From: Paraglaciecola marina | GTDB lineage: Bacteria > Pseudomonadota > Gammaproteobacteria > Enterobacterales > Alteromonadaceae | Reading direction: 5' to 3' | DNA: 64,000 bases | Assembly: GCF_004360155.1 (NCBI RefSeq) | Contig: NZ_SAIS01000001.1 | Coordinates: 620,001 to 684,000 of the forward strand | In this document: piece by piece, positions 19,240-34,342 of the stretch | Layout of the letters: every line of letters starts with the position of its first letter | How positions within the stretch are numbered: the stretch's first letter is position 1 | Position numbers and translations under genes: made by a program | The notes under the pieces: model-generated | The model's input: the letters and a program-made list of their open reading frames with translations, nothing else | The model's database searches: none | What the model was told of the DNA's origin: nothing

Positions 19240-20247
19240 CTAGCTACTAAAGTTTGCCGCAATTCGCATCTTTAAGTAGTCTTCTGCACTTATAGGGGGA
19301 TAGGTTTTTTTAGGCCCCTGAATAGTTACATTTTTATTAGCTTGACAGAAAAAAGCCATACTATGCCGTGGATTTTTCTTTTCTCCTTTATGGGGCATTC
19401 TTACTCTATGTAGTGTTGATTTTAGCTGGTCATCACTCCAACGCATTAACATATCCCCTATATTACAGGTGATCACATCATCTAAGGCTTCTACTTCACA
19501 CCATGACTGATGGATTGAAGCATCTTTTCCCGCACATACTTGCAACCCTGCTTGTCCCTCTTTTTGAAATACCATAGTTAAGCAGTCATAGTCTGTGTGC
19601 GCTCCTGCGCGCCATGTATTTTCAGGTAATTCTGCGTCCTCTGAAAAGGGTAGGTAATGCAACAGTCTTAGGGTACTTTGATAATCGGCTTGAGTTCGGT
19701 CGTGAGCAACTGTAAAAAAATTTCTTTCAAATCCAAGTTTATAGGCAAAGCATTGTAAAACCTTCATACCCAGCTCCCAAGCTTGATGCTCTAAGGAAAG
19801 AATGTGAGTTTTAAAATTGGCTAACTCATTAGTGTTAGGCCATAACCCTTGCATACGTGGTAGGGTGACTTGATAAGATTCTTTCTGATCAGCAACGCCA
19901 GTTGAAGGACGCACTTGTTCCATATATTCCCAACCCGCATTTGAGCCATTTTTTAATGGATATTGGCCCTTAATAGACTCAGGTAAGTCAAAAAAGGCTT
20001 TGGACTCAGCAAACCCTTGGGTGATACTCGATAATGGCAGCCCGTGATTCACTAGTTGAAAAAATCCTACTTCAGTAGCTGCTTCCCATAATTGATTAGC
20101 TATATCTTCAAAACGGTTTTCAAACTCAGTTAAATCAATCTTAGGAATGCTGATTTCTTGCATATCAGACTTTACTTGGCTAAATGCAGCTTCTAGCTTT
20201 AATTCTTGAAGCTCGTAATTCGATTGTTTTGTTTCTGTTTTTTTCAT
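19240..20247 (-). CDS. 2-oxoglutarate/Fe(II)-dependent oxygenase (IPNS-like)
   Basis: Cytoplasmic oxygenase of 335 residues with an N-terminal DIOX_N domain (VGFFQLVNHGL) and a C-terminal 2OG-Fe(II) domain. Iron ligands are His217 and Asp219 in AGAHTDYD and His280 in STLHRVRM; Arg294 and Ser296 in PRHSM bind 2-oxoglutarate. The ATG at 20247 has AGAGAG upstream; an open frame extends 23 codons further but has no such support. It is the last gene of the ABC-importer operon. By analogy with thymine or xanthine hydroxylases it may hydroxylate an imported N-heterocycle, but the substrate is unknown. Confidence 0.85.
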   Translation of the reverse strand: MKKTETKQSNYELQELKLEAAFSQVKSDMQEISIPKIDLTEFENRFEDIANQLWEAATEVGFFQLVNHGLPLSSITQGFAESKAFFDLPESIKGQYPLKNGSNAGWEYMEQVRPSTGVADQKESYQVTLPRMQGLWPNTNELANFKTHILSLEHQAWELGMKVLQCFAYKLGFERNFFTVAHDRTQADYQSTLRLLHYLPFSEDAELPENTWRAGAHTDYDCLTMVFQKEGQAGLQVCAGKDASIHQSWCEVEALDDVITCNIGDMLMRWSDDQLKSTLHRVRMPHKGEKKNPRHSMAFFCQANKNVTIQGPKKTYPPISAEDYLKMRIAANFSS

Positions 20248-20375
20248 TTTTACTCTCTTAAGTTTATGTAATAAGAGCAATGCTGACCTTACCAGCGCTT
20301 CTACTCTGGTTGCCATTTATCATGGCGTGAAAGCGGCTGATAAAATTAATTGATCAGAAGCCAATATATGTAGTG

Positions 20376-21155
20376 TCAGAACTTGTCTTTCGGCAGACTC
20401 CAACGAAAAAATAAATATTGAATCAACTGTACTGTTTTAAATAATAGCAAGCTTAATGTAGATAAAAGTAGCAGGGCTGCAAAAGCCTGAGGGATTTTAA
20501 AATATGAAGTGGAGAATTGCACAAAGTAACCTAGTCCTTGTTCAGCAGCGACAAATTCAGCCACCACTGCCCCAATGATCGCTAAGGTTATAGCTACTTT
20601 CATGCCACTAAAAATATGTGGCACAGCATAAGGTAAGCGAATATGCCACACCTCTTTTACGGCAGATGCTTTTAAAGATTTTGATAACTCTATCAATTCT
20701 TCTGGTGTTGACATCATGCCAGTTGTTGCGGATACCACTAAAGGGAAGAAGGTAATTAGGCAAGTGATGGCAAGCCTTGGGGCTTCGCCAGCGCCCATTA
20801 TAACCACTAACAATGGGGCGATAGCGATAACAGGAGTTGATTGGATAATAACCAAAATTGGGTACAGGGTCTTTGCTAAAAATTTAGACTTAACCATAAA
20901 AATAGCCAAAGGTAAGCTGATTACCAAGGATAAACAAAATCCTAATATAGCCACCCTTAGCGTCGCCCATAAATGTATAGCCCAACGAGAGGGGTCAACC
21001 GCTATAAATGCCTGATAAATTGACGATGGAGCAGGTAATAGAAAATTTGGAATTTCGAACATCCTGACCATAACTTCCCAGATAGGTAATATGGCTAACA
21101 AAGTAAACACTGGAAAAAGTTTGCTGGTAGAGAAATTAAGCGTTCCTTTAGTCAT
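20376..21155 (-). CDS. ABC transporter permease, SsuC/ThiX type
   Basis: Inner-membrane permease of 259 residues with about six helices and the BPD_transp_1 signature around the EAA loop (ELSKSLKASAVKEVWHI). The ATG at 21155 has GGAG seven bases upstream and overlaps the ATPase gene by eight bases; an upstream in-frame start lacks a site. It partners the ATPase and substrate-binding protein immediately upstream, forming a taurine/pyrimidine-precursor-class importer. Confidence 0.9.
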   Translation of the reverse strand: MTKGTLNFSTSKLFPVFTLLAILPIWEVMVRMFEIPNFLLPAPSSIYQAFIAVDPSRWAIHLWATLRVAILGFCLSLVISLPLAIFMVKSKFLAKTLYPILVIIQSTPVIAIAPLLVVIMGAGEAPRLAITCLITFFPLVVSATTGMMSTPEELIELSKSLKASAVKEVWHIRLPYAVPHIFSGMKVAITLAIIGAVVAEFVAAEQGLGYFVQFSTSYFKIPQAFAALLLLSTLSLLLFKTVQLIQYLFFRWSLPKDKF

Positions 21156-21954
21156 TTTTGTCTCCAGAAACAGAAGAGCGCGCATTCGTATTCGGATGAT
21201 AAATTAATTGCCGGATTCGATCCGTGTAGGCGCTAAATTCTGGCGTATTTATGGTATTTAGCGATCTAGGCCTAGGTAGACTAATGGTTATATCTGCAAT
21301 TATATGAGCGGGCCTTGGGCTCAATACTAATACTTTATCGGCTAGTAAAACCGCTTCGGATATTGAATGGGTAATAAACAATACAGTTTTGGGTTTTTGC
21401 CGCCAGATATCTAATAATTCAAAGCCCATTTGTTCACGGGTTAGGGCATCTAAAGCTGAGAAAGGCTCATCCATAATTAAAATTTCTGGATCCATCAACA
21501 AGGCGCGAGCAATGCCGACTCTTTGTTGCATACCACCCGATAACTGATGAGGCATGTGCTCAGAAAACTCACTTAACCTCACCATATTTAACATATTCGC
21601 TGCTGACTCTTTGTTTTTTCTAGAGACACGGCCCTGCTTATATTGGATAGGAAATAACACGTTTTCTAATACATTTTTCCAAGGTAGTAGAGTTGGCTTT
21701 TGAAACACTATACCCGTATTTAACTGTGGTGCTGCAACAGGGTAGTCATAAATAGAAACTTGGCCTTTTGTTGCTGGAAATAAACCCGCTAATAATCTAA
21801 GTAAAGTTGATTTACCGCATCCTGAAGGCCCTAAAACTGCAACAAATTCCCCTTTTTTAATTGAAAAATTTATATTATCTAAGGCACAGACGTTTTTACC
21901 ATCCTGTGTTTCATAGGTATGGCCAACACCTTCAAAGGTGACGTGGGGAAGCAT
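21148..21954 (-). CDS. ABC transporter ATP-binding protein, SsuB/ThiZ type
   Basis: ATPase of 268 residues. Walker A is GPSGCGKST, the Q-loop VFQKPTLLPW is of the nitrate/sulfonate/taurine type, the signature is LSGGMQQRVGIARAL, Walker B ILIMDEPFSALD, and the switch His is in FITHSISEAV. It follows the binding-protein gene with two bases between stop and start and overlaps the permease gene. Confidence 0.92.
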   Translation of the reverse strand: MLPHVTFEGVGHTYETQDGKNVCALDNINFSIKKGEFVAVLGPSGCGKSTLLRLLAGLFPATKGQVSIYDYPVAAPQLNTGIVFQKPTLLPWKNVLENVLFPIQYKQGRVSRKNKESAANMLNMVRLSEFSEHMPHQLSGGMQQRVGIARALLMDPEILIMDEPFSALDALTREQMGFELLDIWRQKPKTVLFITHSISEAVLLADKVLVLSPRPAHIIADITISLPRPRSLNTINTPEFSAYTDRIRQLIYHPNTNARSSVSGDKND

Positions 21955-21956
21955 TT

Positions 21957-23009
21957 TTATTTACTCTCTACTTTAAGATAGCCTGTTTTTTCTTCACTAT
22001 TGGTTGTGACTGGTGAAATTGCTTTCATAAAGCTACGGTTTATGGCTTCTTCAGGGTCTATAGCGTCTAACTCAAACCCTTGAGATTGAGCTACATAAGA
22101 CCAAGATGTTGCTAACCTTTCTGAGTTAATTATGCCTAAACCGTGGGCGTCACTTGCGTTGTTATAGACCAAACTGCGGATATTAATAATAGTGTCTAGG
22201 GCGATTTGGGTATCTACTTCAGGAACCAAATCATGCACTATTGCAGCCGATTCTTTAGGGTAAGCCCATGTAAACTCAATGGCCTTTTGAAAAGCGACTA
22301 AAAAACGCTTAGCCACATCTGGCCGGGCTTTTAAAAATTTGTCAGTGCCTACAATTACCGTTGAGTAAAACTCTAAGCCTGCATCATACCAGGGCATAAC
22401 GTGAAGTTCTTTACCAACAATAGCAACTTGTGATTGGTACTTTACTGTGTCTGTCATCCAAGAAATAATCACGTCGGTATTGCCTGTGGCTAACATGGGC
22501 CCTAAGGCTCCTGCATCTACTTTTATAATGCGGATACTGTCTTTAGGAATGCTATTTAGATTTAAAAGCAAAGGTAAAAATACTACGGATGAACTAAAAG
22601 CTGAGGTAGCGACTCGCTTTCCTTTTACATCTGTGACCGATTCAATACCAGAGCCTTTTAGAGAGAAGAATGCGTGGGGCGCTTTACTAAAAACACTCAT
22701 GATTGCAGAAACGGCTAATGGTTCTTGAGCTTTAGCTGCAAGTAAAGAAGACAAGTCGGCGTAACCTACATCAGCAATTCCCACTCCTAGTTTGGTTAAT
22801 GAGTCTGATGATCCCTTACCGTGAGAAATTTTCACCTTGATGTTTTGCTCTGCAAAAAAACCTTTACCTATGGCAACGTATAGTGGTGCTTTATCGCCAC
22901 CCGGCAACCAATCTAGTTGAAAGGTTACTTCATCCATTCTTGCAGCTTGGGAACTAGCACAGAAAAAACAAACAGCTAAAATAACACGGGGGAACAGTGG
23001 TTTCTGCAT
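21957..23009 (-). CDS. NMT1/THI5-like substrate-binding protein
   Basis: Periplasmic binding protein of about 350 residues with a signal peptide ending near CASSQAA. The motif VTFQLDWLPGGDKAPLYVAI and GKGFFAEQNIKV is characteristic of the NMT1/THI5 (ThiY/SsuA) family that captures pyrimidine precursors, sulfonates or related small organic N/S compounds. The ATG at 23009 has GAGG six bases upstream and is preferred over an ATG four codons earlier. First gene of the operon binding protein-ATPase-permease-oxygenase. A sigma-54-type promoter about 290 bases upstream suggests nitrogen control. Confidence 0.88.
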   Translation of the reverse strand: MQKPLFPRVILAVCFFCASSQAARMDEVTFQLDWLPGGDKAPLYVAIGKGFFAEQNIKVKISHGKGSSDSLTKLGVGIADVGYADLSSLLAAKAQEPLAVSAIMSVFSKAPHAFFSLKGSGIESVTDVKGKRVATSAFSSSVVFLPLLLNLNSIPKDSIRIIKVDAGALGPMLATGNTDVIISWMTDTVKYQSQVAIVGKELHVMPWYDAGLEFYSTVIVGTDKFLKARPDVAKRFLVAFQKAIEFTWAYPKESAAIVHDLVPEVDTQIALDTIINIRSLVYNNASDAHGLGIINSERLATSWSYVAQSQGFELDAIDPEEAINRSFMKAISPVTTNSEEKTGYLKVESK

Positions 23010-23297
23010 TGTTGACCTCATTACAAGATAAAAAAGATTAAGTCAAGACTGTAAAATGTCTGATACTAAAAGTGATTACTAGCGAGGGTAAATGGTGAGA
23101 TTTATAAACTATTTTATTTAGCAAGCTCACACCCCAGTCAGTTAAACCACACTAACTAAACGTTGTGAGCAATGTCCTAGCGTAAACGTGTATCAAGACA
23201 CTTACAGTTCTCACCTGACAGCTTCTACTCAAAGTTTGTGTACTGATTTCTTACTATCAATTCTCTAGCTATTCGAAATCAATATTGAGTTTAAATT

Positions 23298-23313
23298 AGC
23301 AGTTAGTGTGCCA
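23298..23313 (-). promoter_or_regulatory. sigma-54 (-24/-12) promoter candidate, ABC-importer operon
   Basis: Minus-strand sequence TGGCACACTAACTGCT matches the consensus TGGCACG-N4-TTGCT at the GG and GC dinucleotides with correct ten-base spacing. Predicted transcript starts near 23286, leaving a leader of about 275 bases before the binding-protein gene. Confidence 0.6.
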
Positions 23314-23376
23314 AATTCAATGTGTACCTAAAACCTTATATTTAAAGGTGGTTGACTGGGTTTTAGTTTTGATTCA

Positions 23377-23393
23377 TGCATTAACATTGTGCA
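23377..23393 (-). promoter_or_regulatory. NtrC-like dyad upstream of the importer promoter
   Basis: TGCATTAACATTGTGCA differs at two places from TGCACY-N4-TGGTGCA and lies about 90-107 bases upstream of the predicted start, the usual enhancer position. Confidence 0.5.
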
Positions 23394-23550
23394 ATTAGTT
23401 CACTTCGCCCCAAAAGTACCCAATTATTTTTGTGCTTATAAATGAGCTTTGCCTCTTGAGGGATATTCGATATAGTCATATTGTTAGCCTGATCAAATTA
23501 AGTCGTTAGCATGTAAATATGGCTTCGTTGTGACCTCCAAGGAATATTTC

Positions 23551-24951
23551 TTGAATTACCTTATTAAAAATGCGACTGGGATCTTAGCGTCATCGACAGT
23601 TAGAACTATAAATCAGTTTCAATCTGAATCAGAAAATCCTCCGTCTGACATACGTGTAAGCCAAGGTCTGATTAGCGAAATAGGTCGGGGGTTAGAGTTA
23701 ATTAATAATGAGACCTTAATTGATGCTACTAATTGCGTTATCTATCCTGGGCTAATAAACACTCATCATCACCTAGCTCAAAGTGTATTAAAAGGTATTC
23801 CAGCAGGGTTAAATTCGGGTTTAGGTGATTGGTTAGCAGCGGTCCCTTACCGGTTTTGGCCTAACATAGATGCGCAACTTATGTATGACACTGCAACATT
23901 GGGGCTGGCTGAGTTATTACGCTCTGGTGCTACAACCTGCTGTGACCATCATTATTTATATCATGAATCTGTGAGCCCTGAAATTGAAGAGGCTGTTTGG
24001 CAGGCTGCGAGCGATATTGGTATGCGTTTAGTTTTGTGCCGAGGAGGAGCAACATCTATTGGGAGTCACAAAGGCTTAAAAGGAGGGGGTATTCAGCCCG
24101 AAACAGTAGAGCAAATGATAAACCGTTTAGATGATAGCCGGTCACGCTATCATCAAGCAGATGCCAACGCTATGCGGCGTTTAGTCGTGGCTCCCACTAG
24201 TTTAATTCATAGTACTAAAGCTGAAGATTTAAAAGCATTGGTAGCATATGCTAGAAGCCATAGTTTAAAAATGCACTCTCATTTGTTAGAAGTAGACTTT
24301 GATGAACACCAATCACACATGTTACACAGTAAGTCAGCGGTGCAATATGCTGAGGAATGTGGTTGGTTGGGAGAAGATGTATGGTTTGCACACTTAGTTA
24401 AGGCTTCAACGCAAGATATTGACTTATTAGCTAAAACTAGTACGAGTATTAGTCATTGCCCTACTTCTAACTGTCGTCTTGGTAGTGGTGTAGCGCCTGT
24501 GATTGCCATGGAAAACTCAGGAATGAATATCACCTTAGGCGTGGATGGCTCTGCTTCTGCTGAAAATGCCTCTATGATCCAAGAACTAAACTTAGCTTGG
24601 TTGTTACATAGAAGTATTCATGGCCCCGAGGCTACAAGTGCAGAGCAAATAGTAAAGTGGGGCAGCCAAAACGCAGCAAAGCTTTTAGGTTTAGACGCTA
24701 TTGGAGAGTTAAAGGTTGGTAAAGTCGCTGACTTAGTTTTGTTTGATATGAGTCACTATCGATACTGGGGCAATCATAGCCAGATCTTAGCCCCCGTTAT
24801 CGCTGGTGAGCCTGTAGTAGTAAAAACATTATTAGTTAATGGTAGAGTGATTCTAGACAGCGAGGAAATTAAAGGTATTGATCTAGATAAAACTCAGAGC
24901 AGTTTGATTCAAGGTTTAACTAGGTTAAAGCAAAAGGTTGGTAATTTTTAA
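23551..24951 (+). CDS. 8-oxoguanine/guanine-deaminase-like amidohydrolase
   Basis: Metal-dependent amidohydrolase of about 466 residues (ATZ/TRZ family). The HxH motif is in NTHHHLAQ (His72, His74), further ligands are His in MHSHLLE and WFAHLVK, and the Asp is in GVDGSAS. The overall pattern, including PGLINTHHHLAQ and SHCPTSNCRLGSG, is that of 8-oxoguanine deaminase and hydroxyatrazine hydrolases, releasing ammonia from a purine- or triazine-like ring. A TTG at 23551 with AAGGAA six bases upstream is the better start (MNYLIKN...) than the GTG at 23530, which has no site. Divergent from the N-heterocycle-type importer, it may degrade the imported compound. Confidence 0.85.
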   Translation: MNYLIKNATGILASSTVRTINQFQSESENPPSDIRVSQGLISEIGRGLELINNETLIDATNCVIYPGLINTHHHLAQSVLKGIPAGLNSGLGDWLAAVPYRFWPNIDAQLMYDTATLGLAELLRSGATTCCDHHYLYHESVSPEIEEAVWQAASDIGMRLVLCRGGATSIGSHKGLKGGGIQPETVEQMINRLDDSRSRYHQADANAMRRLVVAPTSLIHSTKAEDLKALVAYARSHSLKMHSHLLEVDFDEHQSHMLHSKSAVQYAEECGWLGEDVWFAHLVKASTQDIDLLAKTSTSISHCPTSNCRLGSGVAPVIAMENSGMNITLGVDGSASAENASMIQELNLAWLLHRSIHGPEATSAEQIVKWGSQNAAKLLGLDAIGELKVGKVADLVLFDMSHYRYWGNHSQILAPVIAGEPVVVKTLLVNGRVILDSEEIKGIDLDKTQSSLIQGLTRLKQKVGNF

Positions 24952-25039: not shown

Positions 25040-27706
25040 TTAGCTATCTAAATAGCTTTCTAAATCATCGCCTTGTTGGTTATCAACATCTTCAGGATCA
25101 ATTTCTATCACAGGAATAGTTTGATCTACACTAAAATGCACACAACTTGATTGAGAAAAGTTTGGTACGTTATCATAACTAAATACTGAATAGTATTTAG
25201 GTTTGTTAGGGTTACCAAAACTGTCATAGGTGTATTCATCTGGACCACCGTATAATTTCACCCCATCAAAGGGAGAGCGTGGCGGATGAAAGCAGTTTCT
25301 CACTACAAATGAGCCTACAAAATCAGGATCTTTAGGGTTATCCCAAAGGATTTTAACTTTGTTGTTTTCAATTTTGGTACGAATGTTCGTAGGTGACTCT
25401 AGAGGCGTTTTCTTGCGCTCAATATACTCTACTACCAATTTTGGTTGTAAGTTTTCAGTAGGACTATTTACCCATTCAACTAGTTCATCTTGACCATCTC
25501 TAAAGCCTGAAGTTGCTCTTATTAGGAAAAATGCTTGGGCATTATGCTCATAAAGGCTCTCTAACTCACCTCGGCTATAACTATCAAAATCAAAATAGTG
25601 GGTCTTTTTATTGCGTAGCTCTGCATTACTCACTTCATAACCAATATATTGAATACTCTCCCTTTGTTTCATGCTCTCGAAACTGAGTTCTTCAAAATCA
25701 GCCAATTCAACTGTAAAACGAATATCTTTTTTAGGGCCAAGAGAATTGTGATTAGATAACTGTAAGTAGGCATTGGTAATCACAGTGCGTTTAGGGTCTG
25801 GCATTGAGTGCATAGCAAACGCAAGTTGGCCGTATATTTTGTTGCCATCTTTATCATATCCAGTTTGTAATTTTCCGGTTACGTTACCTTCAGCCATTAT
25901 AGTATTGATACTGGTAGGCGATATCTCAACTTTATTAGCTTGTCGGGTATAGATAATTTCGAGGTTAGGCCGGTAATGGATACCCGAACCAAAGCGGCCA
26001 TAGCCAATATCAAACTGCATCATTTGAGAGTCTGCGCCGTTAGGGAGCGTGGTTGGCCCATCGATACGCATCAATACTTTTCCAGTTTTTAGCTGTTCTT
26101 GCAAAATAGCGCGCTCTTTACCGTTTAAAGGCCAATCACTCCAAACACCCTGAGTCACTCTATCTGATTCTATTGTTTGCCCAGAATGAATGACAGTAGC
26201 GTTAGCAATGTCATTGTAATCTCTAATATTAGGTACACTGGACGCGTCTAAGAATGAGATGCCCCATTCACCATAGCCTTCTAATTTTGCACTGACTCGG
26301 TTCATTGGATATAAAGAGAAACACGCCTCTTTAATTTCTGCGTCATCTGGCAATCTATCTAGGGAAAATTCGATTACCCCATAACACGCCCCTCGAGATT
26401 TATTTACACCAATAAAAAGCGAGTTTAATCCAAAGTGTTCATGGTTTTTTTCTTGGGTATACTGACCCACGTAACCAATTTGGTTGGCTGGCGGAAACAG
26501 AGTTTTGCTAAACTGCTCGTGGGCCAATAAAGTTCTAATTTTTACTTCAGGGGCGTAGGGGCCTTTTATTTTGGTCTCTAAGGAGACACTACGAATTTTA
26601 TAAAAATATAATTGCCCACTTTTAAGCTGTATATCACTGAAGCTTAAGGACTTAGTGATACCTACTAAATTATCATCGGTACAGGGGCTTTTATGATGGG
26701 TATTTCGATAGATCTCAAAATACACATTTGCATCTTCTGGGGATTCCCACTCTAGCGTAATACTATTCTCGGTTACTTCAGACATATTGAAGTTATCGGG
26801 TCTACTAGGTGCAAGGTCAGAGTAATTAACTGCAGAGCGCAGAGCATGAACCAGGGCTGGAATGTTTTCGTTAACACTTTCAGACATGTTTTCCATATAG
26901 TCTGGAATATTTTTGGTGCCAACTTCCACTACAGTGGCTAATATGCCCTTGCTGTAATAATACTCGCGGCCACTGCCATTGATTAGGTTTGTGGGGGGCT
27001 TCCCTCTATGAATCCCATATTTTCTGCCGGTCACTTTTTCAATTTCAAATGCCATGTTGGCACAAAGGGTATTTAGATCTGTGGTGTCGATTTCAGCTTC
27101 GTGATCAAATTTATGGGCGGGGAAAAACACATTCCCTTGGGAGTGGTAATCTAGAGAAACAGTAATGTTGCCATGATCCGCCACAAAATCTCTTATAGCT
27201 TGGGTTTCTGGCTCTGAAAACGCACTAGGGCCACCATAAATATTCGATGATGGGTCGCTTCTTTCTTTAAATCTCACCCCGAAGTTTCGATTAAGATCGA
27301 CACCATAGGTGCCATCGCCGTTATTACGGCGGTTTTTTCGCCAAAAGGAAAAATGGGTGCGGGAATACTCAAAACCATCAGGATTTAAACAGGGCACTAT
27401 ATAAAGGGTATTTCGGGTTAATGCATCTTGTAACTTAGGGTTAAACTGATAGTTATCGATTATATATTTGATAAAGCTATTGGCTAATTCTATGCCTATC
27501 CATTCACGGGCGTGAATAGTTCCTGTGTATAACAGTGCAGGTTTTTTGTCGGCATTGTGTACGTCAAGACTGATGGTCGCCAACATAATAGGGCGTCCTT
27601 CCCATGTTTCACCGATGCTTTTAACTTTTATTAAGTCAGGGTAATCCCGGGCTGCATCGTCTAAAAACTCCATGGTTTCTTTGTACGAAAAATACTGTTT
27701 TTTCAT
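25040..27706 (-). CDS. leaderless M14 carboxypeptidase with FN3 and beta-sandwich modules
   Basis: An 888-residue protein whose first 300 residues are an M14 zinc carboxypeptidase domain. Zinc ligands are His65 and Glu68 (GTIHAREWIG) and His188 (SLDYHSQGN); Asn139-Arg140 (DLNRNF) would bind the substrate carboxylate and Glu261 (VVEVG) is the general base, so the enzyme looks active. After it come a fibronectin-III-like domain (about 305-390), two DNRLRE-like beta-sandwich stretches (about 400-585 and 590-760, the latter ending LVEWVNSP...LVVEYIE), another FN3-like segment (about 770-860) and an acidic tail ending DDLESYLDS. There is no signal peptide (MKKQYFSYKET), odd for a protein built of modules usual in secreted enzymes. 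It is third in an operon after two ATP-grasp ligases. Confidence 0.85.
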   Translation of the reverse strand: MKKQYFSYKETMEFLDDAARDYPDLIKVKSIGETWEGRPIMLATISLDVHNADKKPALLYTGTIHAREWIGIELANSFIKYIIDNYQFNPKLQDALTRNTLYIVPCLNPDGFEYSRTHFSFWRKNRRNNGDGTYGVDLNRNFGVRFKERSDPSSNIYGGPSAFSEPETQAIRDFVADHGNITVSLDYHSQGNVFFPAHKFDHEAEIDTTDLNTLCANMAFEIEKVTGRKYGIHRGKPPTNLINGSGREYYYSKGILATVVEVGTKNIPDYMENMSESVNENIPALVHALRSAVNYSDLAPSRPDNFNMSEVTENSITLEWESPEDANVYFEIYRNTHHKSPCTDDNLVGITKSLSFSDIQLKSGQLYFYKIRSVSLETKIKGPYAPEVKIRTLLAHEQFSKTLFPPANQIGYVGQYTQEKNHEHFGLNSLFIGVNKSRGACYGVIEFSLDRLPDDAEIKEACFSLYPMNRVSAKLEGYGEWGISFLDASSVPNIRDYNDIANATVIHSGQTIESDRVTQGVWSDWPLNGKERAILQEQLKTGKVLMRIDGPTTLPNGADSQMMQFDIGYGRFGSGIHYRPNLEIIYTRQANKVEISPTSINTIMAEGNVTGKLQTGYDKDGNKIYGQLAFAMHSMPDPKRTVITNAYLQLSNHNSLGPKKDIRFTVELADFEELSFESMKQRESIQYIGYEVSNAELRNKKTHYFDFDSYSRGELESLYEHNAQAFFLIRATSGFRDGQDELVEWVNSPTENLQPKLVVEYIERKKTPLESPTNIRTKIENNKVKILWDNPKDPDFVGSFVVRNCFHPPRSPFDGVKLYGGPDEYTYDSFGNPNKPKYYSVFSYDNVPNFSQSSCVHFSVDQTIPVIEIDPEDVDNQQGDDLESYLDS

Positions 27707-27797
27707 CTTTTCTCTTAACTATTATCGAGTAATGTTTAGCCTATAGGCGCCATTAGCCTCATAGGCGCAAATTAATGCGCCAATACTAGTTCCATAA

Positions 27798-29249
27798 TTA
27801 TTGAGGCGATGAGTGAATGTATTCTTGCCATGTTTCCAATATGCTGATTACTTTCTTCTCACCAATATTTTTTACTTTGTAAAACTCACTACCATCACTT
27901 TGTAATGCTTGGTGAATCGTTGGTAAATCTAATGTTTCAAATATTAGTGAAACCTGTTGTTTACCAAAGCCCTTAATACTACCAAAAAATTCGGCGAATG
28001 CCTCAGCACTAAGCTCAACAGTTTCTACATTTTGATCATTTTTTACTATTTCTGGCGATTCTTCTGCTTCGTCGGTTACTTTTATAGTCGCAGCTTCAGA
28101 TGCGTCCAAGGTTTCTGCAACTTGAGGTGCTGAAACTGTGGCCGCTGTATCGCCTTTGTTTTTTAAATAATTGTCTTGGCGGTTCCAAATATCACTCGGC
28201 CATTCTTCGGCAGTCATGGCTGTGGTTGCTAATATTGGGTAATTGTCATCACTGATTTCAGTGAATAGCTCTCCACCATCACAGCTTGGCATGACTTGTT
28301 TACCAAAGGTTATATTCCGCATTGTGCGCAAAACATTGGAACTCATTTTGCTCAACTCTTCCCAATTAAATAATGGAATATAGGGCAGCTTGAATTGACC
28401 ATTAGAAAACTTCCACATCAGGTATTGGCCAATCCAATCCCTAATGTAAGGAAATGCCGCAAATGCTGTGGCACACTCAAGAATTCTGTACTTACCGTCC
28501 ACACCAACCGCAACGTCGCAAGCCCAATATTCAGCTTTTGCCGCTTTAGATACTTTAACCGATAAGTCTAAAACTTCTTGGGGTACAGCTTGGTAATCCA
28601 TTGAGCCACCTTGGCTGGTATTGGTTAACCATTCACCTTCAGGTGGTCGACGCCAAAAGGCGCACACTGGCTTGTGGCCAATAAGCATAACGCGAATGTC
28701 TGCTGCCATAGGCACGAAATCTTGTAAATAAACGGGGTAATATTTTTTTTCATCAAGTAAACTTCGTGCTTCTTTGTAACTATCTACTTTATGTACAAAG
28801 TAGCCCCCATAGTTTGACGGACCATAGGACTTCTTGATTATTTTCGGAAACTTAGTTTGTTTTAAAAACTCGTCTGCTTCTTGTTTTTCATAAAAGATGC
28901 GGGTTTTTGGAATAGGGATGTCGTATTTTTCACAAAATAGTGTCACATTTTCTTTAGATTTGTTTGAAAACTGAGTGTCGAGTGAGGGCACAAATTGTAC
29001 ATCAGGCAATGCATTACTAATTTCTCTAAATGTCTCATAGGCTGTGGCTGGTACATTTCCTATCAAAACATTAATTTTTTTACGTTTAACTTCATTGATA
29101 AACCGCTGCTTGTCATTTCGCCAATGGTAGGTGACGGTTTCAATTTTGTCAGGCCAGCCTTTAAAGTTAGATTTGTCGAAAAATCTTAATACGTGATCTA
29201 AGTATAATAGGCCTATTTTTGGTAATGGAGATTTCGCATTTTTTTTCAT
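27798..29249 (-). CDS. ATP-grasp ligase with C-terminal helix-hairpin-helix domain
   Basis: A 483-residue cytoplasmic protein. Residues about 1-110 look like a pre-ATP-grasp domain; 110-300 form an ATP-grasp domain with nucleotide-binding lysines in KFPKIIKKSYG and a metal-binding segment YRILECATAF, where the usual E-x-N is replaced by E-C-A. A low-complexity acidic linker (about 370-420) leads to a C-terminal HhH-like domain (IKGFGKQQVSLIF...VKNIGEKKVISIL). ATP-grasp enzymes of this RimK-like type join a carboxylate to an amine, but this architecture is unfamiliar to me. Its ATG overlaps the stop of the upstream ligase gene, so they are translationally coupled. Confidence 0.8.
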   Translation of the reverse strand: MKKNAKSPLPKIGLLYLDHVLRFFDKSNFKGWPDKIETVTYHWRNDKQRFINEVKRKKINVLIGNVPATAYETFREISNALPDVQFVPSLDTQFSNKSKENVTLFCEKYDIPIPKTRIFYEKQEADEFLKQTKFPKIIKKSYGPSNYGGYFVHKVDSYKEARSLLDEKKYYPVYLQDFVPMAADIRVMLIGHKPVCAFWRRPPEGEWLTNTSQGGSMDYQAVPQEVLDLSVKVSKAAKAEYWACDVAVGVDGKYRILECATAFAAFPYIRDWIGQYLMWKFSNGQFKLPYIPLFNWEELSKMSSNVLRTMRNITFGKQVMPSCDGGELFTEISDDNYPILATTAMTAEEWPSDIWNRQDNYLKNKGDTAATVSAPQVAETLDASEAATIKVTDEAEESPEIVKNDQNVETVELSAEAFAEFFGSIKGFGKQQVSLIFETLDLPTIHQALQSDGSEFYKVKNIGEKKVISILETWQEYIHSSPQ

Positions 29250-30181
29250 TACTGTTTCTCTTCTACAATTCGTTCAATTAAATTAACAATTTTATTGATT
29301 TTAAGGGCGTTAAAATCTAATCCTAATTTTTCTTGTTCTGGTGTAGCAAATGCTGGAATACCATTGACCTCCAACACAACATATTCTTCTGTATCTAAGT
29401 CATATAAGAGGTCTACGCCAGCAATTTCTAGTCCTGATACTTTTGCAGCTTTGATAGCTAATTCAATGATAGCGTCATCAGGTTGACGTAATATGACAGA
29501 GCCCCCACTAGTGATATTAGTTTTCCAATCATCCTCAGGGGCACTGCGGCCGTAACACCCTACAAATTCTCCATCTACAATATCTATGCGGTAGTCGGTT
29601 TTGTCGTAATTGATGAATTTTTCCAAATAAAAATGTTTCATATCCATTCTATTTAGAAAAGGAATAAGAATGTCTAAAGAGCGCTCATCTTCTATCTTAA
29701 CTATACCATTTCCACCCCAGCCATCTGTGGGTTTGTAGACTACTTGTCCCTGCCATTCACGTACTGTATTTTTTAATAACTGAATGTCTATGTGGTTTAT
29801 TAAACGGTAATCTGCTGTTCGAATTCCTGCTCTGTTTAACATGTGAGCGGTTAGAAATTTATCTTCTGTTAGCGCAAAAGCGTCATAATTATTTATGGTT
29901 GGTACAGAGCGGCTAAGGGCATTATACAAGTATACTTGATAGGCTGTTTGACCACCTGCATTATATGAGAAAAATGCTGAAAGCTCTTCCATGCAAATTC
30001 CATTGCAGACGATCTCACCGCCGTGAGCTGAGGCATTAGCCATATCTAGGCTAGGTATGGTTTTTATGTTTTTTTGGCTTAAAAGGTCGATTATTTGCCT
30101 TTGAATTTCATTCCCACCACTATTTTGGTACATCCACATACCTATGGTCGGCTCTAACCCAGAACTTGTATTCGAATGCAT
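29249..30181 (-). CDS. RimK-like ATP-grasp carboxylate-amine ligase
   Basis: A cytoplasmic ligase of about 310 residues resembling RimK/LysX-type enzymes, which attach glutamate or another amino acid to a carboxylate through an acyl-phosphate. The ATP-grasp core includes VVYKPTDGWGGNGIVK, FYLEKFINYDKTDYRIDIV and the magnesium-binding end DTEEYVVLEVNGIPAF with intact E-x-N. The ATG at 30181 is chosen because GGAG lies nine bases upstream; the in-frame ATG at 30196 has no site. First gene of the operon RimK-like, ATP-grasp-HhH, M14. A sigma-54-like promoter is about 85 bases upstream. Substrate unknown. Confidence 0.85.
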   Translation of the reverse strand: MHSNTSSGLEPTIGMWMYQNSGGNEIQRQIIDLLSQKNIKTIPSLDMANASAHGGEIVCNGICMEELSAFFSYNAGGQTAYQVYLYNALSRSVPTINNYDAFALTEDKFLTAHMLNRAGIRTADYRLINHIDIQLLKNTVREWQGQVVYKPTDGWGGNGIVKIEDERSLDILIPFLNRMDMKHFYLEKFINYDKTDYRIDIVDGEFVGCYGRSAPEDDWKTNITSGGSVILRQPDDAIIELAIKAAKVSGLEIAGVDLLYDLDTEEYVVLEVNGIPAFATPEQEKLGLDFNALKINKIVNLIERIVEEKQ

Positions 30182-30230
30182 AAAAAATTTCTCCATTAAA
30201 CTGAATAGGGCCCAGTTACACTATAAAATT

Positions 30231-30246
30231 GGTGTAGTTATACACC
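30231..30246 (-). promoter_or_regulatory. palindrome in the RimK-like operon leader
   Basis: Perfect inverted repeat GGTGTA-GTTA-TACACC, between the predicted sigma-54 start and the ligase gene. Could be an operator or a leader hairpin. Confidence 0.4.
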
Positions 30247-30275
30247 GCTCATTTCTGATATTTACAAATGTGGAC

Positions 30276-30291
30276 AGCAATTTTAACGCCA
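30276..30291 (-). promoter_or_regulatory. sigma-54 (-24/-12) promoter candidate, ATP-grasp operon
   Basis: Minus-strand TGGCGTTAAAATTGCT keeps TGGC and TTGCT with ten bases between GG and GC. Predicted start near 30264. Confidence 0.55.
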
Positions 30292-30424
30292 ATAGCTAAT
30301 AAGAGTTGCAACTTTAGTATTATATTGACAAATTGAGACAGAGAAGGTCCAACGACTAATATACTATTTTAAATCGATTATAACTCAATAACTTAAGTCA
30401 AATTATATTCATTTTAAATAGCAG

Positions 30425-30475
30425 ACGCACCAAAGCTGAACTGATATTAGTTGGTATTGTATCTTGTTGGTGCGT
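30425..30475. promoter_or_regulatory. inverted repeat / NtrC-like site between divergent sigma-54 promoters
   Basis: ACGCACCAA (30425-30433) and TTGGTGCGT (30467-30475) are perfect inverted 9-mers. The right arm is part of TGTATCTTGTTGGTGCG (30458-30474), which differs at three positions from TGCACY-N4-TGGTGCA. It lies 100-116 bases upstream of the predicted M20 start. Confidence 0.45.
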
Positions 30476-30546
30476 AAAACAGTGGCACTAGGAACATATA
30501 GATAACTAAGCCTTAGATATTCAATACTATGGCACCATAAAGATCT

Positions 30547-30562
30547 TGGTATTTCAATTGCT
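30547..30562 (+). promoter_or_regulatory. sigma-54 (-24/-12) promoter candidate, M20 gene
   Basis: TGGTATTTCAATTGCT has GG and GC spaced by ten bases and a full TTGCT element. Predicted start near 30574, just before the M20 coding region. Confidence 0.55.
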
Positions 30563-30591
30563 ATATAGGATTACATTCATGTTTATTAACT

Positions 30592-31698
30592 ATGGTTGGA
30601 GTTACTTTGAACTTTACTGAACTAGCACAAATTATAAATCTTAATTCTTATACTAAAAATAAACCGGGTGTCGATGAAAATGGAAAAATTTTTAGTGCAT
30701 GGATGGAGACTTTAGGCTTTGAGACTGAAGTATTTGCTCGAGAGCATATTGGTGATCACTTGTTATTTACGTCTCCAGTCGTAGCAGGTAAAAAACGTGT
30801 TTTACTATTAGGGCATTTAGATACTGTGTTTCCTCCGGGAACTTTCACTGACTTTTCTGAAGATGCCGAATGGGTATATGGGCCTGGTGTATGTGATATG
30901 AAAGGGGGCAATGTAGTTGCTCTTGAGGCCTTGCGTAATGTTAAAGCACAACAAGGTGAAATTGCTAATATAGACATGTTGTTAGTAAGTGATGAAGAAA
31001 GTGGTAGTGACGATAGTAAATATTTGAGCGCTGAGCTGGGCAAAAATTATGATATTTGCTTAGTTTTTGAGGCTGCTGGTGTCGATCATGAAGTGGTCAT
31101 TGCAAGAAAAGGCGTAGGAACCTTTTTTATTAACCTTGAAGGAAAAGCGGCCCATGCTGGTAACCATTATGTGGATGGGTGTAATGCAAATTTGGCTGCG
31201 GCCCATATGATTATTGCATTGACTGAGCTGACTAACTTGGCAGAAGGGACAACGGTTAACGCTGGTAAAATGAGTGGTGGTATTGGCGCTAATACAATTT
31301 CTCCTAAAGCGGAAATCATAGTAGAGACTCGTTATACCCAAAAGGTAGAAAAAGAACGCTTGTTAGCCAGCCTAGAAGAAATATGTGCAAATCCAGCCGT
31401 AAAAGGTGTAACTGCGACATTATCGGGTGGTATTCAGAGGGATGTGATGCAAAGTTCACCCAATCAAATGACGCTATTGGCACAAATTGCAAGTATTTTA
31501 GGGTATCCCCTGAAGACTGAAAAACGAGGTGGGGTAAGTGACGCTAATATAGTATCGTCGGTTGGCGTAGCTACTTTGGATGGCTTTGGTCCCTTTGGAG
31601 ATGGTGACCATACCATTACTGAGCGTGCAAGTAAGGCTAGTTTTTCAAGGCGTATAGATGAGGTGACTAAAATATTATTAGATTTTAATGCTGGCTAA
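30592..31698 (+). CDS. M20 family metallopeptidase, glutamate-carboxypeptidase-like
   Basis: A 368-residue cytoplasmic peptidase of the M20A (CPG2-like) family. Metal ligands are His and Asp in LLGHLDTVF, Asp in GVCDMKGG, the Glu pair in SDEESGS, and a His near GDGDHTITE; the dimerisation domain contains GKAAHAGNHYVDGCNA. Enzymes of this group remove C-terminal glutamate or deacylate amino-acid derivatives. A TTG at 30607 with GGAG five bases upstream is a possible alternative start to the ATG at 30592, which has no site. Divergent from the ATP-grasp/M14 operon and apparently sharing its sigma-54 control, it may hydrolyse the product of those ligases. Confidence 0.85.
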   Translation: MVGVTLNFTELAQIINLNSYTKNKPGVDENGKIFSAWMETLGFETEVFAREHIGDHLLFTSPVVAGKKRVLLLGHLDTVFPPGTFTDFSEDAEWVYGPGVCDMKGGNVVALEALRNVKAQQGEIANIDMLLVSDEESGSDDSKYLSAELGKNYDICLVFEAAGVDHEVVIARKGVGTFFINLEGKAAHAGNHYVDGCNANLAAAHMIIALTELTNLAEGTTVNAGKMSGGIGANTISPKAEIIVETRYTQKVEKERLLASLEEICANPAVKGVTATLSGGIQRDVMQSSPNQMTLLAQIASILGYPLKTEKRGGVSDANIVSSVGVATLDGFGPFGDGDHTITERASKASFSRRIDEVTKILLDFNAG

Positions 31699-32108: not shown

Positions 32109-32474
32109 ATGGCGATACCTGTAACTATTGCAGACGATTCTGCGCTTTCTCGCAAAAATGTTCGACGTGCAATCCCAGAAGATTGGGATGTCACTATATC
32201 TGAGGCGACCAATGGGCAAGAGGCCATTGACGCTGTAGAGGCAGGCTTAGCTGATATCTTATTTTTAGACCTCACAATGCCTGTGTTAGATGGGTTTGAT
32301 GTACTTCGTTATGTCAAAGGTAATCATCAAAAAACCGTAGTTATTGTGATTAGTGCTGATATACAACCAAAATCAGTAGAGCTCGTAAATTCTTTAGGAG
32401 CATTTCGTTTTTTACAAAAGCCATTAAAAGCTGAGGAGTTAAAACAGACGTTGCATGAAGTAGGTTTACTATGA
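32109..32474 (+). CDS. CheY-like single-domain response regulator
   Basis: A 121-residue receiver domain with all key residues: acidic pair Asp9/Asp10, phospho-acceptor Asp54 (LFLDLTMP), Ser82 and Lys104 (FLQKPL). There is no output domain, so it would act by protein contact. AGGAAAA precedes the ATG. It overlaps the CheC-like gene by four bases and is followed by a histidine kinase, a self-contained phosphorelay with its own putative phosphatase. Confidence 0.93.
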   Translation: MAIPVTIADDSALSRKNVRRAIPEDWDVTISEATNGQEAIDAVEAGLADILFLDLTMPVLDGFDVLRYVKGNHQKTVVIVISADIQPKSVELVNSLGAFRFLQKPLKAEELKQTLHEVGLL

Positions 32475-33052
32475 AAGATTTATTATTAACAGAAGACCAG
32501 CGAGATGCCTTGCAAGAAATGATGAATATTTCAATGGGGCAAGCAGCAAAATCATTAGCACAGTTAATTGATGTTCAAATAACCTTATCGATTCCGACAA
32601 TTAATGAAGCTAGTCCAGATGATCTAGTTGAGATATTAAATCATAGTGATGACACTTGGTATGCTAGGCAGTCTTTTCTAGGGCAAATTAAAGGTGAAGT
32701 TCTCTCTTTAATAAGTAAAGAGGGTTGTGATGCCATGGCTGAATTAATGGATTATGATAAACCTTTGTGTGACGCGCAAACCCAAGAGTTAATTTTAGAG
32801 TTAACAAATATATTATCTGGTGCATGCTTGAGTGGTTTATCAAGCCAGCTAGAATTAAAATCCAACCTAAATATGCCGACTTTATTTAACTCCTTAACAA
32901 ATGGAAAACCCAATTATAATTGGGCTACTGTATTATTAGTTGAAGTATGTTTTAGCATTGAAAGTTTTAGTTTTAACGCAAGGGTGGTTATTTGCCTAGA
33001 AGAAAACTCAATTGTTGCTTTGAAGGCTAGTCTAGATGCCTTATTAAGTTGA
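32471..33052 (+). CDS. CheC-like CheY phosphatase
   Basis: A 193-residue protein of the CheC/CheX/FliY group, which dephosphorylates CheY. The D-x3-E-x2-N active-site pattern is present twice: DALQEMMN near residue 12 and, with Glu in the first position, ELILELTN near residue 106. It overlaps the cheY-like gene by four bases (ATGA), implying coupled translation and direct partnership. It is followed after seven bases by the kinase gene. Confidence 0.82.
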   Translation: MKDLLLTEDQRDALQEMMNISMGQAAKSLAQLIDVQITLSIPTINEASPDDLVEILNHSDDTWYARQSFLGQIKGEVLSLISKEGCDAMAELMDYDKPLCDAQTQELILELTNILSGACLSGLSSQLELKSNLNMPTLFNSLTNGKPNYNWATVLLVEVCFSIESFSFNARVVICLEENSIVALKASLDALLS

Positions 33053-33058
33053 TTCAGA

Positions 33059-34342
33059 ATGCACAAACCTGAATTATTAGAAAGTCTGTTACGTAAGTTA
33101 CCTATGGGCGCTTGCATGGTAGATAAAGAGTACCGCATTGTTTTTTTAAATGACTTTTTTGCTGACCGAATGGATTGTGATGAAAAGGACGTGCTTGGAA
33201 AGTCTTTGTTGGAACTTTTTCCTGATCAAGCTAGGTTTTTAAAAAAGAAAATTAATAGTGTTTTTATTTTAAAAAATGAAACCTTTTCTTACTGGGAGCA
33301 ACGCCCACATATATTCAATTTTTTGAGTTCACGCCCTGTGACTGGTGAAGAGTCCTTGATGTTTCAAAATATGGAAGTATTACCTCTAATGGATGATAGC
33401 CATGAGGTACTTTATGCATGTATTACTATTCAAGATGTAACAGCGCAAGCCAGTTATTACAATGATTTATCTAAAGTAGCTGATGAGTTGGAGTTAGAGC
33501 ATAAAGCTCAAGCGAGTCTTATTAGTAAGTTGAAAGATACGCAAAGCCAGTTAGTTCACTCCGAAAAGATGGCTTCTATTGGTCAATTGGCTGCTGGTGT
33601 AGCTCATGAAATTAATAGTCCAATAGGATTTGTATACTCAAATATTGAAATCCTCCAAGATTACATTGGAAAGCTCGTAAAAATCACCCAGTTTTCAGAT
33701 AAATTGATAGATAAAATTGGTCAGGAACTTCATCTTAAATTAAAAAAGGACTTCTTTGAGCGCCACGAGTTTGATTATATAAAAGAAGATGTGGTCGATT
33801 TGGTGGAGGAATCCTTAGATGGTGCCAAGCGCGTCAAAGCTATAGTAGAAAGTTTAAAGGAGTTCTCCCATGCAGATGCTAAACATTGGACAGAAAGCAG
33901 CTTAATTGATGGAATTGAGAGCACTCTAAAAATAGTCAGTAGTCAGTTTGAGTCTAATGTCACATTGCATAAAGATTATGAAAAAGGCTTAACTCCTTTA
34001 TTTTGTATGGGAATGCAGTTAAATCAGGTTTTTATGAACTTGCTTGTAAACGCAGCTCATGCGGTAGGTGAAAATGGTTCAATTTTTATTAAAGTGTTTA
34101 GTGAGGGCGAGTTTCAAAAAGTTAGTGTAAGAGACACTGGTATTGGAATTGACGCAAAAAACTTATCAAAAATATTCGACCCATTTTTTACAACAAAGCC
34201 GGTTGGCAGAGGTACTGGGTTAGGTTTATCGCTTTCTTATAATATTATTAAAAACCATAACGGTAATATTGATGTTAAGAGTTCGGTAGGAGAGGGGACC
34301 GAGTTCATTGTTAGCATTCCAATTAAACATGCCAAAGAATAA
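33059..34342 (+). CDS. PAS-domain sensor histidine kinase
   Basis: A 427-residue kinase without membrane segments. Residues about 8-130 form a PAS domain, then a coiled coil (about 135-170), and an H-box GVAHEINSPIGF with His183. The catalytic domain has the N-box NQVFMNLLVNAAHAV, G1 VRDTGIGID, F-box FDPFFTTK and G2 GTGLGLSL. The H-box and long dimerisation region resemble the kinases often found with CheC-like phosphatases. It would phosphorylate the CheY-like protein encoded two genes upstream. Being soluble, it probably senses a cytoplasmic signal. Confidence 0.92.
   Translation: MHKPELLESLLRKLPMGACMVDKEYRIVFLNDFFADRMDCDEKDVLGKSLLELFPDQARFLKKKINSVFILKNETFSYWEQRPHIFNFLSSRPVTGEESLMFQNMEVLPLMDDSHEVLYACITIQDVTAQASYYNDLSKVADELELEHKAQASLISKLKDTQSQLVHSEKMASIGQLAAGVAHEINSPIGFVYSNIEILQDYIGKLVKITQFSDKLIDKIGQELHLKLKKDFFERHEFDYIKEDVVDLVEESLDGAKRVKAIVESLKEFSHADAKHWTESSLIDGIESTLKIVSSQFESNVTLHKDYEKGLTPLFCMGMQLNQVFMNLLVNAAHAVGENGSIFIKVFSEGEFQKVSVRDTGIGIDAKNLSKIFDPFFTTKPVGRGTGLGLSLSYNIIKNHNGNIDVKSSVGEGTEFIVSIPIKHAKE

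Follow-up and report, generated by a model that had tools for sequence, protein, structure and literature searches.

We analyzed a window of 64 kb (the whole stretch of DNA considered here, 64,000 nucleotides) from the 4.64-Mb genome of Paraglaciecola marina, contig NZ_SAIS01000001.1, positions 620,001 to 684,000. The window contains a cassette of four genes encoding two ATP-grasp ligases, an M14 metallocarboxypeptidase and an M20 metallopeptidase. The ligases are denoted RMK, a RimK-like ligase of 315 aa, and HHG, a ligase of 483 aa with a helix-hairpin-helix (HhH)-like tail. An original prediction, made from the sequence alone, had placed these genes in a minus-strand operon with a stop-start overlap between the ligases and a divergent M20 gene, and its coordinates and strands were all found to be correct. 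The four genes, in window coordinates, are as follows.

25040..27706, minus strand: M14 metallocarboxypeptidase (888 aa; Pfam M14 E=9e-60, Foldseek matches and Zn ligands)
27798..29249, minus strand: HHG, second ATP-grasp protein (483 aa) with a LysX/ArgX/RimK-like core (Pfam RimK 2e-14, Foldseek matches)
29249..30196, minus strand: RMK, RimK/MptN-like ATP-grasp ligase (315 aa; Pfam RimK 5e-19, MptN model)
30592..31698, plus strand: M20 metallopeptidase, carboxypeptidase G2-like (368 aa; Pfam M20 1e-19, PDB profile)

The stop codon of RMK and the start codon of HHG share one base (TAATG). A gap of 91 bases separates HHG from the M14 gene downstream, and the divergent M20 gene lies 395 bases from RMK.

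A scan of genome contigs with the HHG protein gave 171 encoding relatives. We retained the best 80, which together with 8 other genomes from the order of the window made up the 88 loci examined. Complete cassettes were counted in the 68 loci with at least 2.3 kb upstream and at least 1 kb downstream of HHG. All four genes were present in 61 of these, while the M14 gene was absent in four, the M20 gene in two and both in one. The original prediction had made the cassette depend on synteny of the four genes in other genomes, and this was what we found: the co-location is far beyond chance and marks a conserved unit. Of the 76 loci having both RMK and the M20 gene, 74 had the two in divergent orientation. 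According to their titles, the Campylobacterota hosts were mostly Sulfurovum and kin, and the gammaproteobacterial hosts included Pseudoalteromonas, Colwellia, Shewanella marina, Veronia, Photobacterium, Motilimonas, Endozoicomonas, Sansalvadorimonas and Cycloclasticus; one unplaced marine-biofilm bin was also among the relatives. HHG was found in 5 of 398 Pseudomonadota genomes and in 18 of 200 Campylobacterota genomes (one of them a fragment). In the HHG tree, one branch (support 92/95) separated the named Campylobacterota from the Pseudomonadota, with 25 rows belonging to no named group.

Co-occurrence, which the original prediction had proposed as a check, was strict across the order of the window: HHG was present in 9 of 295 genomes, and the identical nine carried M14 and RMK. 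The weakest HHG match was 4e-174 (threshold 1e-20) and the weakest RMK match 3e-151 (threshold 1e-40); as all matches in these scans were far past the threshold, the family forms a discrete set. M14, RMK and HHG were searched across the order, and M20 was seen through the fetched loci of the 8 other genomes, as a fragment where the initially fetched stretches were cut off (35 to 158 bits) and whole in the three loci fetched at greater length (L136-L138).

Loci with a missing gene pointed in the same direction. Whole-genome searches recovered the cassette M14 in 11 of 11 genomes, including five without M14 beside HHG, and the M20 in 6 of 7 genomes (it was not found in G301). Because M14 is retained elsewhere when it is unlinked, these exceptions support a link between the genes. 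The pairwise divergence of the four proteins was also correlated (r 0.74 to 0.87, 73 loci), in part because of shared ancestry. Among 16 additionally fetched loci, ten (L124-L133) were co-directional and five (L134-L138) had a divergent M20 gene; in L128 and L130 the cassette genes were masked in the gene calls by longer frames on the opposite strand and were shown by tblastn. The remaining locus, L123 (genome G339), had a single frame of 1243 aa consisting of a full M14 (residues 1-866, 44% identity) and a full M20 (residues 875-1228, 57% identity), both confirmed by Pfam. This fusion suggested that the two peptidases share a compartment and a pathway.

RMK passed the Pfam RimK cut-off (69.1 bits vs 21). 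Its best NCBIfam match was MptN (126.5 bits, under the equivalog cut-off of 350); it scored 122.5 bits with the RimK family alpha-L-glutamate ligase model TIGR00768 (under the subfamily cut-off of 143.4) and 42.8 bits with E. coli-type RimK (under the cut-off of 331). It was also under the cut-offs for cyanophycin synthetase (45 bits, cut-off 850) and N-acetylglutaminylglutamine synthetase (39.7 bits, cut-off 569). By these scores RMK appears closest to the glutamate ligases MptN and RimK. The Mg-binding motif of ATP-grasp ligases is E-x-N, and RMK has the canonical form (E276-V-N278), with E276 and N278 in 101 of 101 aligned rows.

HHG also passed the Pfam RimK cut-off (54.3 bits vs 21) and scored 74.1 bits with TIGR00768, under the cut-off of 143.4, and 15.7 bits with the MvdC model (cut-off 425). 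Its metal site is altered: Glu258 and Ala260 were found in 104 of 104 rows, with Ala260 replacing the usual Mg-binding Asn, and hhalign aligned A260 to N278 of RMK. The first approximately 360 residues contain long invariant stretches and are followed by a tail predicted as a confident helical bundle.

27810..28022, minus strand: helix-hairpin-helix-like C-terminal tail of HHG (HHH_5 17.5 bits; HHH_3 in relatives)

The HhH label given in the original prediction is weak in the window, where the HHH_5 score is below the cut-off of 27, and clear in two relatives (L126/L127), where HHH_3 scored about 94 bits. Tails of relatives were of the window type, tandem HHH_3 or DUF1643 (in one Cycloclasticus), or were absent (L123-L125). 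The long invariant stretches of the core and the variability of the tail suggested that something conserved is recognised by the core, with the HhH tail as an optional addition. In the uncultured Cycloclasticus locus (L052:7992-9641), the DUF1643 domain (Pfam 1e-38) takes the place of the HhH tail.

The best Foldseek matches of HHG were ArgX bound to LysW (3vpb), LysX and RimK, which raised the question of an amino-group carrier pathway of the LysW type, in which the ligases, like LysX/ArgX, would load a carrier protein and the M20, like LysK, would release what has been made on it. The cassette shares with this pathway the HHG fold and an M20 release enzyme, and the M20 matched the LysW-lysine hydrolase model weakly (39.6 bits, cut-off 363). 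However, LysW was over the cut-off in none of 10 cassette genomes, five of which gave only weak matches (E 0.05 to 1), and no further gene was conserved beside the cassette across lineages. We rejected a LysW-type carrier on this search and regard this pathway as the least likely of the alternatives. More generally, both ligases fell below the NCBIfam cut-offs for cyanophycin, LysX, N-acetylglutaminylglutamine and MvdC-type graspetide enzymes, in agreement with the earlier view that no known pathway matches.

The M14 protein has a fold closest to those of carboxypeptidases A4, T, B and O (CPA4, CPT, CPB and CPO) by Foldseek, in a predicted model whose zinc-site loops are of low confidence. M14 enzymes are recognised by an HxxE...H zinc site, an Asn-Arg substrate site and a catalytic Glu. 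The Zn ligands H65, E68 and H188, together with N139, R140 and E261, were found in 89 of 89 M14 rows and R126 in 88 of 89 (some genomes are represented by more than one copy among the rows), so by its motif residues the protein is an M14 metallocarboxypeptidase. Three further features of the gene bear on its function.

26966..26968, minus strand: codon of M14 Arg247 (position 255 in carboxypeptidase A numbering; ungapped carboxypeptidase B alignment)
25430..26806, minus strand: M14 accessory beta-sandwich region with fn3-like, further beta and DNRLRE-like domains (Pfam, NCBIfam; predicted mostly beta)
25043..25153, minus strand: acidic tail at the C-terminus of M14 (present in a minority of relatives)

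All 89 M14 rows have Arg at residue 247. In a 76-column ungapped phmmer alignment with carboxypeptidase B, the zinc histidines pair and R247 pairs with D255; the spacing is equal, R247 lying 59 residues after H188 and D255 59 residues after H196 of carboxypeptidase B. The full-length M14 profile matched the same chain at 4e-35 in the same end register (profile 256 to chain 262). Residue 255 is described as determining specificity, being Leu/Val in CPA, Asp in CPB, which acts on basic ends, and Arg in CPO, which acts on acidic ends (PMC9925722). The acidic preference of CPO is confirmed in PMC6214572, in passages that do not name the arginine. An invariant arginine at this position thus predicts the removal of a C-terminal Glu or Asp, and the M14 protein would be acid-specific and CPO-like.

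The accessory region includes an fn3 domain (residues 301-375; Pfam 4e-5, 24 bits vs a cut-off of 25) and a DNRLRE-type domain (residues 612-759; NCBIfam 7e-8, 32.8 bits vs a cut-off of 34). The acidic tail had been suggested as a possible substrate. A tail of at least 25 residues past the last conserved motif was found in just 12 of 87 scored rows, the window included, and we rejected it as a general substrate. The M14 of L136 was not scorable by motif, yet its C-terminus is acidic.

The M20 protein matched Pfam M20 together with M20_dimer, and its closest solved relative was carboxypeptidase G2 (8e-44, PDB profile), which is a glutamate-releasing enzyme. The characteristic M20 residues are the metal ligands, the catalytic Glu, the dimer-domain His and the carboxylate-binding Arg; the corresponding H75, D102, E135, E136, E160, H188, R283 and H340 were present in 81 of 81 rows. 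By these residues the protein is a carboxypeptidase G2-like M20 peptidase. That the cassette would both make and break amide bonds is therefore supported, as originally proposed, by family membership.

Two ligases and two peptidases without an acceptor gene would also suit a storage or osmotic polymer. In such a system, the ligases would build a free polyamide, either poly-glutamate or a polymer of two residues with a cyanophycin-like logic, the M14 would depolymerise it and the M20 would finish the small products. The cyanophycin enzymes CphA and CphB likewise combine ATP-grasp amide ligation with dedicated hydrolases, RMK matches cyanophycin synthetase models weakly, the conserved beta-sandwich half of the M14 could hold a polymer, and the named hosts include many marine genera. 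Against this, RMK is far under the CphA cut-off, and neither a Mur-ligase half nor a cyanophycinase such as CphB was among the family matches listed (for the M20, the best 25 of 47). We consider a free polymer unlikely, though less so than the other alternatives.

We examined cellular location by a simple hydropathy test of the N-terminus, in which a binding protein encoded in the window served as control and scored high. No hydrophobic N-terminus was found in 89 M14, 81 M20 and 104 HHG rows or in the four proteins of the window, consistent with the earlier description of the M14 as leaderless and the cassette as cytoplasmic. Four of 101 RMK rows exceeded the threshold. Two of them have the usual IGMWM start 24-33 residues further in. 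The remaining two come from copies of a single genome, in which the frame is 385 residues long; these exceptions are thus likely to be over-long start calls. As far as the hydropathy test reaches, the cassette looks cytoplasmic.

Members of the M14 and M20 families often serve in catabolism, and the beta domains of the M14 resemble those of enzymes that are typically extracellular. These features would fit the scavenging of peptides, in which the two peptidases digest imported peptides and the ligases serve another role or recycle the products. Such a role appears improbable in view of the strict co-occurrence of the ligases with M14, the retention of M14 and M20 when unlinked, the correlated divergence and the absence of hydrophobic N-termini described above. 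In addition, ABC-type genes were nearby only in a syntenic Pseudoalteromonas group (9 loci).

Tandem ATP-grasp enzymes resemble the MvdC/MvdD clusters, and the graspetide ligase PsnB was among the Foldseek matches of HHG, at rank 7. These features would fit a graspetide-like peptide, with a ribosomal precursor encoded elsewhere that is modified by the ligases and matured by the peptidases. We searched the cassette gaps and 700 bases after M14 in 80 loci for a precursor gene. The 14 largest clusters of small frames contained no conserved small open reading frame: each was either a gene end (the HHG C-terminus) or an out-of-frame shadow of the genes, and the stretch behind M14 contributed none of them. 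On these clusters we rejected a precursor in the gaps or after M14; the original prediction had seen none either. Among the neighbours of the cassette, no fifth gene was conserved across lineages: the next clusters were found in at most 17 loci. The largest of them came from syntenic Pseudoalteromonas, while another, with 11 loci, was from Sulfurovum and kin. Together with the low MvdC score of HHG, this makes a graspetide very improbable.

R247 and the nearest families of the M20 and RMK together point to glutamate or aspartate. We therefore propose a cytoplasmic, self-contained system for the reversible attachment of an acidic chain, likely alpha-linked glutamate, to an acceptor encoded outside the cassette, a reading for which we see the chances as about even. 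RMK, with its complete MptN/RimK-type metal site, would add Glu units to a C-terminal carboxylate at the expense of ATP. HHG, with its altered metal site and variable HhH tail, would select or start on the acceptor, or be a non-catalytic partner of RMK. The M14, carrying the carboxypeptidase O-type arginine, would trim the chain from its C-terminal end, and the M20, resembling carboxypeptidase G2, would take the last glutamate off the acceptor. The acceptor is proposed to be a small-molecule cofactor or a protein. What the analysis shows is that the four proteins go together, to which families they belong, which residues they keep, that hydrophobic N-termini are missing and that M14 and M20 can be fused; the chemistry, the sequence of the steps and the acceptor are inferred from this. 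Of the original interpretation, which saw a cassette that makes and takes apart an amino acid-containing conjugate in the cytoplasm, the reality of the cassette, its amide chemistry by family and its cytoplasmic look stand; the acidic tail does not, and the conjugate is now refined toward glutamate or aspartate.

Several points weigh against this proposal. RMK is below every NCBIfam cut-off among the models listed, and Ala260 at the metal site leaves the catalytic activity of HHG open to question. The fn3 and DNRLRE-like beta domains of the M14 are of kinds often found in secreted proteins. The match to carboxypeptidase G2 does not prove a preference of the M20 for Glu. The phmmer alignment that places R247 has E=0.16 and was outranked by two chance matches to ETS factors, and a profile of the R247 stretch matched the same chain at E=1.2, again below chance matches. 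For a baseline of Arg255 in other bacterial M14 proteins, the alignments listed span the site in 2 of 16 other loci (L142/L151, one protein), and we claim none. Pocket shape, besides residue 255, is also described as influencing M14 specificity (PMC9925722). Finally, the cassette-gap and LysW searches found no substrate, carrier or precursor.

We found no description of this cassette in the literature, in a search of open-licence papers. TTLL ligases are ATP-grasp enzymes, and the eukaryotic tubulin code joins such a writer to an M14 eraser of glutamate chains, the cytosolic carboxypeptidases. Unlike this system, the cassette is bacterial and has an additional M20. By fold, its M14 matched CPA/CPB/CPT/CPO. 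Neither the Rim and rlo systems nor MyfA/MyfB has this gene set, and both are partial precedents. As described in PMC12239564, the Rim system (RimK, RimB and RimA) and the Pseudomonas rlo operon have, within one operon, an ATP-grasp glutamate ligase (or a homologue of one) and a peptidase whose substrate is polyglutamate or which takes part in the same process, and the ligase is cytoplasmic; unlike in the cassette, the peptidases are retropepsin-like aspartic enzymes and not M14 or M20 enzymes, and there is one ligase, not two. The methylofuran enzymes MyfA and MyfB are presented in PMC8141765 as two ATP-grasp ligases thought to act sequentially on a chain of up to 24 Glu, and MyfB as 33% identical to MptN, the best NCBIfam match of RMK. 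This is a precedent for two ATP-grasp ligases at work on one polyglutamate side chain. The word carboxypeptidase is absent from the main text of PMC8141765, so that it describes no trimming pair, and the neighbourhood is one of C1 metabolism, unlike that of the cassette.

A narrower version of the proposed reversible attachment, which we offer tentatively and hold to be rather doubtful, is a dedicated bacterial polyglutamylation writer-eraser. An active glutamate ligase and a metal-site-altered partner, possibly a target-recognising pseudo-ligase, would be opposed by the fused or paired M14/M20 eraser, with a target other than ribosomal protein S6. If true, the cassette would parallel the tubulin glutamylation cycle in prokaryotes, or would maintain an undescribed polyglutamylated cofactor or polymer. 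Few bacterial systems pairing a glutamate ligase with a peptidase are known, and according to PMC12239564 RpsF and SdeA are the only bacterial proteins known to be polyglutamylated. The conservation of a four-gene unit in both Campylobacterota and Gammaproteobacteria, together with the predicted acid specificity of its M14 and a ligase that may be a pseudo-enzyme, suggests a conjugate, polymer or protein modification that has so far gone unrecognised.

Phage defence and a mobile or viral origin were also considered. Phage defence was rejected as PADLOC gave 0 families for the 4 proteins at E 0.001. A mobile or viral origin was rejected on searches of viral contigs, which contained no relative, of phage records, 16 of which gave matches that were only partial and RimK-type, and of a plasmid set, in which the one true relative was on a 2.1-Mb Photobacterium replicon.

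The region between RMK and the M20 gene was examined for regulatory features.

30197..30591, no strand: divergent intergenic region RMK/M20 (no conserved open reading frame or clear known operator found)

A search of this region in 71 loci with nine regulator patterns gave no clear known operator. A sigma-54-like pattern was found in 2 of the 71 regions, where simple base shuffles would give 0.13, a number too small to support a conclusion. The region in the window contains an inverted repeat, ACGCACCAA/TTGGTGCGT, with arms 33 bases apart (30425-30475), and AT-rich palindromes are recurrent in the intergenic regions of relatives.

Some genes adjoin the cassette in parts of its range. A gene that we take to be a MutM-like DNA glycosylase from its first residues (cluster c4, 17 loci) lies just upstream of M20 in syntenic Pseudoalteromonas, including L017, L022, L025 and L029. 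An endonuclease III-like gene follows M14, nearly without a gap, in 4 of 6 fetched Campylobacterota M14 loci, whether the ligases are adjacent or not (L107:6334-6984, HhH-GPD, Pfam 2e-27; homologues in L102, L104 and L105 by BLAST). In Veronia nyctiphanis (L036:10141-12723), the M14 is broken across four reading frames, which may reflect a decayed copy or a sequencing error. In the window itself, positions 19240-24951 hold a dioxygenase-like gene, an ABC transporter with a binding protein (named from sequence) and an amidohydrolase over the PRK12393 cut-off. This looks like a separate uptake and catabolism cluster, which does not adjoin the cassette in relatives; the amidohydrolase gene (23530-24951) was rejected as a cassette member on the same grounds. 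Downstream of M20, at 32109-34342, are genes for a receiver-domain protein, a CheC/CheX-like protein and a PAS histidine kinase, likewise named from sequence.

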